This document shows positions 37,752 through 38,194 of a DNA stretch of 38,194 nt, piece by piece; the first letter of the stretch is position 1; each line of letters opens with the position of its first letter. Source of the DNA: Betaproteobacteria bacterium (GTDB lineage Bacteria > Pseudomonadota > Gammaproteobacteria > Burkholderiales > SG8-39). The notes beneath the pieces are model-generated. The model worked only from the letters and a program-made list of their open reading frames with translations. It was not told the origin of the DNA and did no database searches. The translations under genes were made by a program, and so were the position numbers. Where the stretch lies: positions 1 through 38,194 of the forward strand of contig CANIEV010000018.1 of assembly GCA_947466535.1 (NCBI GenBank), read 5' to 3'.

Positions 37752-37776
37752 AAAGGGCCTCGCGAAGAGGCCCTTT
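37752..37776. terminator. Hairpin terminator following the tRNA-Pro fragment
   Basis: AAAGGGCCTC (37752-37761) and GAGGCCCTTT (37767-37776) form a perfect ten-base stem with a five-base loop, usable on both strands. On the minus strand it lies seven bases after the tRNA CCA, the expected place for the native tRNA-Pro terminator. Confidence 0.85.
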
Positions 37777-37783
37777 CTTTTCT

Positions 37784-37828
37784 TGGTCGGGGCGAGAGGA
37801 TTTGAACCTCCGACCACCTGCACCCCAT
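37784..37828 (-). tRNA. 3' fragment of tRNA-Pro(GGG), attachment-site remnant
   Basis: Read on the minus strand, this is the 3' half of a proline tRNA: anticodon loop ATGGGGT (anticodon GGG), stem GCAGG, variable region TGGTC, T arm GGAGG-TTCAAAT-CCTCT, acceptor CGCCCCG, discriminator A and encoded CCA. The bases 5' of the anticodon loop do not pair with GCAGG and no D arm or CGGGGCG start exists, so it is not a functional gene. Loss exactly at the anticodon loop, with an integrase gene alongside, marks an integration junction. Confidence 0.85.
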
Positions 37829-37888
37829 TTAAGTTCATATTGCTCCCCCAGCCATCAGTTTAATGATTTTTTCACTCTCAAGACCACC

Positions 37889-37917
37889 TTGCTTTGTATC
37901 ATACCGTCGCATAGAAT
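37889..37917 (+). promoter_or_regulatory. Candidate promoter of the integrase gene
   Basis: TTGCTT (37889-37894) and TAGAAT (37912-37917) are 17 bases apart, 58 bases before the integrase ATG. The -10 box is good and the -35 weak. Confidence 0.5.
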
Positions 37918-37939
37918 TGCTGGAAATCGCAGGCAATTT

Positions 37940-37961
37940 GTTCCCCTGGGTGTTCCCCTGG
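37940..37961. repeat. Ten-base direct repeat upstream of the integrase
   Basis: GTTCCCCTGG occurs at 37940-37949 and again at 37952-37961, a 12-base period. Short direct repeats beside an attachment site are often arm-type integrase or excisionase sites; that role is inferred. Confidence 0.6.
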
Positions 37962-37975
37962 AATAAGGCGACGCA

Positions 37976-38194
37976 ATGACTACAGACCGACTAAACGACA
38001 GACAAATACGCCTAACAAAGGTGCGTGAAAGCGAATATCTGCTGTCCGATGGGCAGGGGCTTTTCCTACGGGTCAGACCAAAGGGCGGCAAAGACTGGCT
38101 CTTCATTTACTCTTTCTCAGGGAAGCGGCGAAAGATGGGCATGGGCAGCCTGAATGATGTGCCGCTAGTCACTGCCCGAAAAGAGCGGGACAAA
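37976..38194 (+). CDS. P4-type tyrosine integrase, N-terminal part (cut by window end)
   Basis: The visible 73 codons form the N-terminal arm-binding domain (DUF4102) of P4-like tyrosine recombinases: MTTDRLNDRQIRLTKVRESE, LLSDGQGLFLRVRPKGGKDW, FIYSFSGKRRKMGMG and the VPLVTARKERDK helix. The catalytic domain lies beyond the window. AAGG lies about eight bases before ATG 37976. The gene is 147 bases from the tRNA-Pro fragment and points into the element. The base composition here is visibly less GC-rich than in the chromosomal genes to the left. Confidence 0.88.
   Translation, partial: MTTDRLNDRQIRLTKVRESEYLLSDGQGLFLRVRPKGGKDWLFIYSFSGKRRKMGMGSLNDVPLVTARKERDK

Follow-up and report, generated by a model that had tools for sequence, protein, structure and literature searches.

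A tRNA-Pro(GGG)-borne genomic island split between two contigs of a draft betaproteobacterial genome

The window analysed here (38,194 nucleotides) is the entire contig C18 of a draft Betaproteobacteria genome (G000; 341 contigs, 5.24% contamination estimate). Its right end is almost certainly the edge of a mobile island that carries a P4-type integrase and is inserted in a tRNA-Pro(GGG) gene. Both junctions of the insertion, the 51-bp direct repeat common to them and the uninterrupted site in a relative were located. The element is an ordinary tRNA-borne genomic island of a known kind that has been split by assembly.

Positions 37784-37828 (minus strand) hold a displaced 3' fragment of tRNA-Pro(GGG), 45 nt in length, which reaches from the opening base of the anticodon loop as far as the CCA and is identical to the final 45 nt of an intact gene on another contig of the same genome, C62. 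The fragment is part of a 51-bp direct repeat (37778-37828, minus strand), the att core, which comprises nucleotides 33-77 of tRNA-Pro(GGG) and 6 further bases beyond the CCA, is identical to C62:83-133 and marks the end of the island away from the intact tRNA. No tRNA-Pro 5' half was found in the window when up to 6 edits were allowed, ARAGORN detected no tRNA gene in it, and an Rfam search of positions 35000-38194 gave no match, as expected for half a tRNA. The fragment is followed by a strong hairpin (37746-37780, minus strand; -22.4 kcal/mol, z -4.6), the native rho-independent-type terminator of tRNA-Pro, and a closely similar hairpin stands 3' of the intact tRNA-Pro in G001, a genome of the same genus. 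A previous reading of these bases, made from the letters alone (hereafter the earlier note), had described a 45-base 3' fragment cut at the anticodon loop and still carrying its own terminator, and both parts of that description hold. The G+C content is 0.497 to the right of the repeat versus 0.626 before it, a value that ∼0.1% of 366-bp stretches in the window attain. To the left of the fragment, the neighbouring chromosomal gene encodes a DUF1840 protein (37316-37651, minus strand; PF08895, E 3e-22). Further into the window, HlyD-like and ABC transporter-like frames at 31951-35426 (minus strand) resemble, by eye only, a type I secretion pair.

A gene for a tyrosine integrase of P4 type begins to the right of the repeat, with its first 73 residues encoded at 37976-38194 (plus strand). 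This open reading frame matches Arm-DNA-bind_3 (PF13356) with an E value of 1.7e-14 and 54.1 bits against a cut-off of 27; it is by this N-terminal domain that the P4 type is recognised, and the arm domain alone is the part of the protein present in the window. The integrase start is 148 bp from the tRNA fragment, the usual distance, and the frame remains open up to residue 73 at position 38194, where the sequence stops because the assembled contig stops there. An integrase of P4 type that adjoins the fragment and reads outward had been proposed by the earlier note, and the domain match bears this out. The remainder of the protein, including the catalytic part that would bear the conserved Arg, His and Tyr residues, was not found in the G000 assembly. 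Three other integrases of this genome (on C9, C259 and C286) gave no match to the integrase start of the window, and those on the short contigs C259 and C286 have other N-terminal domains, without the P4 arm domain. The tyrosine integrase on C286 (L064:741-2000) is broken by a TGA and adjoins a TPP-enzyme gene on a 4.7-kb contig. A near-mode search of E. coli genomes gave no match, IMG/VR yielded only three distant relatives, and all matches among phages and plasmids were below 60% identity; there is therefore no sign of a known phage.

The other perfect copy of the 51-bp repeat in the G000 contigs is C62:83-133, and its 100% identity (E 2e-19) is not due to chance. An intact tRNA-Pro(GGG) gene lies near the end of that contig (C62:89-165), and this copy makes up its 3' portion. 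Beyond the tRNA gene, C62 carries merR (a MerR regulator), ihfA (an IHF-like protein), pheT and pheS. Given that the only further related match in the genome is a tRNA-Pro(CGG) gene on C8, C62 holds, in the rebuilt gene, the sole tRNA-Pro(GGG) of the assembled genome. The element's far end had been expected to hold a second copy of the repeat joined to a tRNA-Pro 5' half, and such a copy, identical over 51 bp, is what C62 provides, on a separate contig. An intact tRNA gene and its cognate fragment, in the same orientation and bounding the element, correspond to the arrangement by which Islander recognises tRNA-borne islands, and the geometry is consistent across C18, C62 and the empty site.

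The empty site was identified in G001, the sole same-genus genome searched. A search by way of the DUF1840 neighbour did not find the site, and the MerR neighbour as a search handle led to it on contig C205 (L034). Here, merR and tRNA-Pro(GGG) run straight into the terminator and flank that lie left of the fragment in the window, and the 51-bp repeat is present once (L034:1979-2029). C62 aligns to positions 1-2029 of L034 (96.4%) and the flank of the window to positions 1979-2199 (94.1%), such that the two alignments overlap by exactly 51 bp. When the two flanks were joined at the repeat, a single 2,199-bp match to G001 was obtained (96.1%, one gap). C18 and C62 are thus separated by an insertion, and the sequence to the left of the fragment belongs to the chromosome. 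The remaining prediction of the earlier note was that relatives would show an empty site, and the one found here agrees with its view that fragment and native terminator are the old chromosomal 3' end. An uninterrupted site of this kind in a relative is also among the features that Islander looks for. Its definition further asks for a tyrosine integrase gene within the element, of which the window has the arm domain, and for a length of 2-200 kb.

The two island ends resemble each other in one respect. The segment between the att core and the integrase (37829-37975, plus strand) contains two copies of TGTTCCCCTGG 12 bp apart, at 37939 and 37951, and the 10-mer TGTTCCCCTG is common to both island ends, occurring twice in tandem beside the integrase and once at C62:12; 1.2% of shuffled pairs shared any 10-mer. 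The TGTTCCCCTG and TGTTCCCCTGG repeats are probably arm sites of the integrase. The island end on C62 (positions 1-82) bears a terminator-like hairpin of its own (z -4.7), so the rebuilt tRNA gene gains a new terminator.

These features are very probably the outcome of recombination between an attP of the island, holding the last 45 nt of tRNA-Pro(GGG) and 6 further nucleotides, and the host tRNA-Pro(GGG), the strands being exchanged within the anticodon loop or immediately 3' of it. The 5' half of the host gene and the 3' copy carried by the island would then have been combined into a whole gene, with a replacement terminator contributed by the island, and the old 3' end with its native terminator would have been moved to where the integrase lies, at the right end of the window. 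We infer both this recombination reaction and the activity of the integrase. The junctions lie on different contigs, and C18 and C62 would be physically linked through one island, the middle of which is missing from the assembly; no island cargo was found in the G000 contigs.

A special case of the island explanation is that the element has decayed, being mostly deleted and leaving little between C18 and C62. There is a precedent among the nearest relatives, a Nevskia locus (L096) in which ∼1 kb with a truncated integrase separates the fragment from an intact tRNA-Pro. However, the integrase frame of the window is open to the contig end, a remnant of less than ∼2 kb should have been assembled, each of the two contigs breaks off within the island, and the end 20-mers of C18 and C62 are shared with no other contig of the bin. 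Such a relic is therefore unlikely. It is far less probable that C18 and C62 derive from different organisms, or that a misjoin occurred at position 37828, even in a draft genome with so many contigs and this level of estimated contamination: a single contig from the same-genus genome is matched by the two flanks at 94-96%, one to each side of the shared 51 bp, the junction has the position that a genuine att site should have, at an anticodon loop beside an integrase of P4 type, and another member of the family, G023, shows the same structure independently. Fragments of tRNA genes do occur in bacterial genomes, but a chance or duplicated fragment without an island is scarcely credible here, being already contradicted by G001, since the fragment continues into the native flank seen at the empty site, and by an integrase adjoining at the usual distance.

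Of the two island ends, it is the one with the displaced fragment, and not the one with the intact tRNA, that carries the integrase. The polarity of such loci was surveyed among integrases from the window's family and from named genomes, the counts referring to classifiable loci. The usual polarity, with an intact same-strand tRNA ending 120-620 bp before the integrase, was observed in 27 loci, and the reverse, with an opposite-strand 3' fragment 118-221 bp before the integrase, in 18 including the window; for 8 of these 18 (L096, L106, L110, L121, L126, L127, L132 and L139) the matching intact tRNA was present at the far end of the same stretch. The polarity of the window is the less usual one among the P4-type relatives sampled. 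In a quick integrase tree, where the window is represented by its 73 residues, it groups with three Nevskia integrases (SH-aLRT 95), all of which adjoin tRNA-Pro fragments in reverse polarity. The reverse polarity requires at least two changes, on the starred branches of this tree, and arose at least twice on it. On balance, we favour a lineage in which attP is reversed relative to the integrase, such that integration would always leave the integrase at the fragment end and restore the tRNA at the far end; the layout would be inherited within integrase clades, would have arisen more than once and would here be linked to the tRNA-Pro anticodon loop. A partial literature search on integrase polarity found no direct statement of it, and an earlier description may exist.

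The survey also contained a Rhodobacterales-centred P4-type group with reverse polarity at genes for tRNA-Ser, -Glu and -Arg (L106, L110, L114, L119, L121, L123, L124, L126, L127, L132, L134, L136, L139 and L140). In those loci for which both ends were observed, ∼3.7-9.7 kb separates the start of the integrase from the far tRNA. The fragments in this group, at 14-15 nt, are singly weak (E ∼1e-4) and are consistent in position and in their match to the far tRNA.

The closest integrases found, those of Nevskia (L096, L097 and L098), are 56% identical in the arm domain and share the target isoacceptor family and the reverse polarity of the window; they differ in belonging to other organisms, L096 being a 1-kb relic and L098 truncated. 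The relic island (L096:9739-10837) consists of the fragment, the truncated integrase and an intact tRNA-Pro(GGG). Upstream of the integrase in L097 and L098, a second integrase-like remnant was noted by eye in translations of the open reading frames, across the tRNA-Pro fragment, which suggests that two elements lie end to end at a single att site.

Among described islands in tRNA genes, those catalogued by Islander combine a tyrosine integrase, here represented by the arm domain, with features that the present island shares, namely an intact tRNA at one end, a displaced 3' fragment at the other and crossover at the anticodon loop; about half (2,083 of 3,919) cross over at this subsite, termed A (PMC4383910). 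Unlike them, the island of the window is split across contigs with its middle missing and has its integrase at the fragment end. Splitting of islands in metagenome-assembled genomes has been measured at large scale with TIGER2 (PMC9580842). As in such cases, the termini here are found on different scaffolds of a fragmented assembly and were mapped through the empty site of a relative; by contrast, the present island was found from a tRNA fragment and not by ping-pong BLAST.

A second island of this kind occurs in G023. Its integrase and fragment end lie on C45 (L160:1-865) and its intact tRNA-Pro(GGG) end on C37 (L161:1031-4490). The two islands have the same target gene, the same polarity and 12-bp-spaced repeats at both ends. 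That of G023 differs in its distant integrase, in its repeat, GCGGTACGGT, the copies of which are probably arm-type integrase sites too, and in carrying brxF and brxC of a BREX system. These two genes (PADLOC, E 1e-40 and 0; DUF6079), near the rebuilt tRNA, are the recognised cargo in the ∼3.4 kb by which C37 reaches into the island. DUF6079 (brxC) gave no match in the assembled contigs of G000, from which the island interior is absent.

In practical terms, searches for integrases beside intact tRNA genes alone would miss the reverse-polarity group. For the present organism, the position of an accessory region is pinned exactly in a draft environmental genome, and the missing middle is an assembly gap. 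In the family, the tRNA-Pro(GGG) gene beside merR-ihfA-pheST is a reused site, at which G023 carries its BREX-bearing island.
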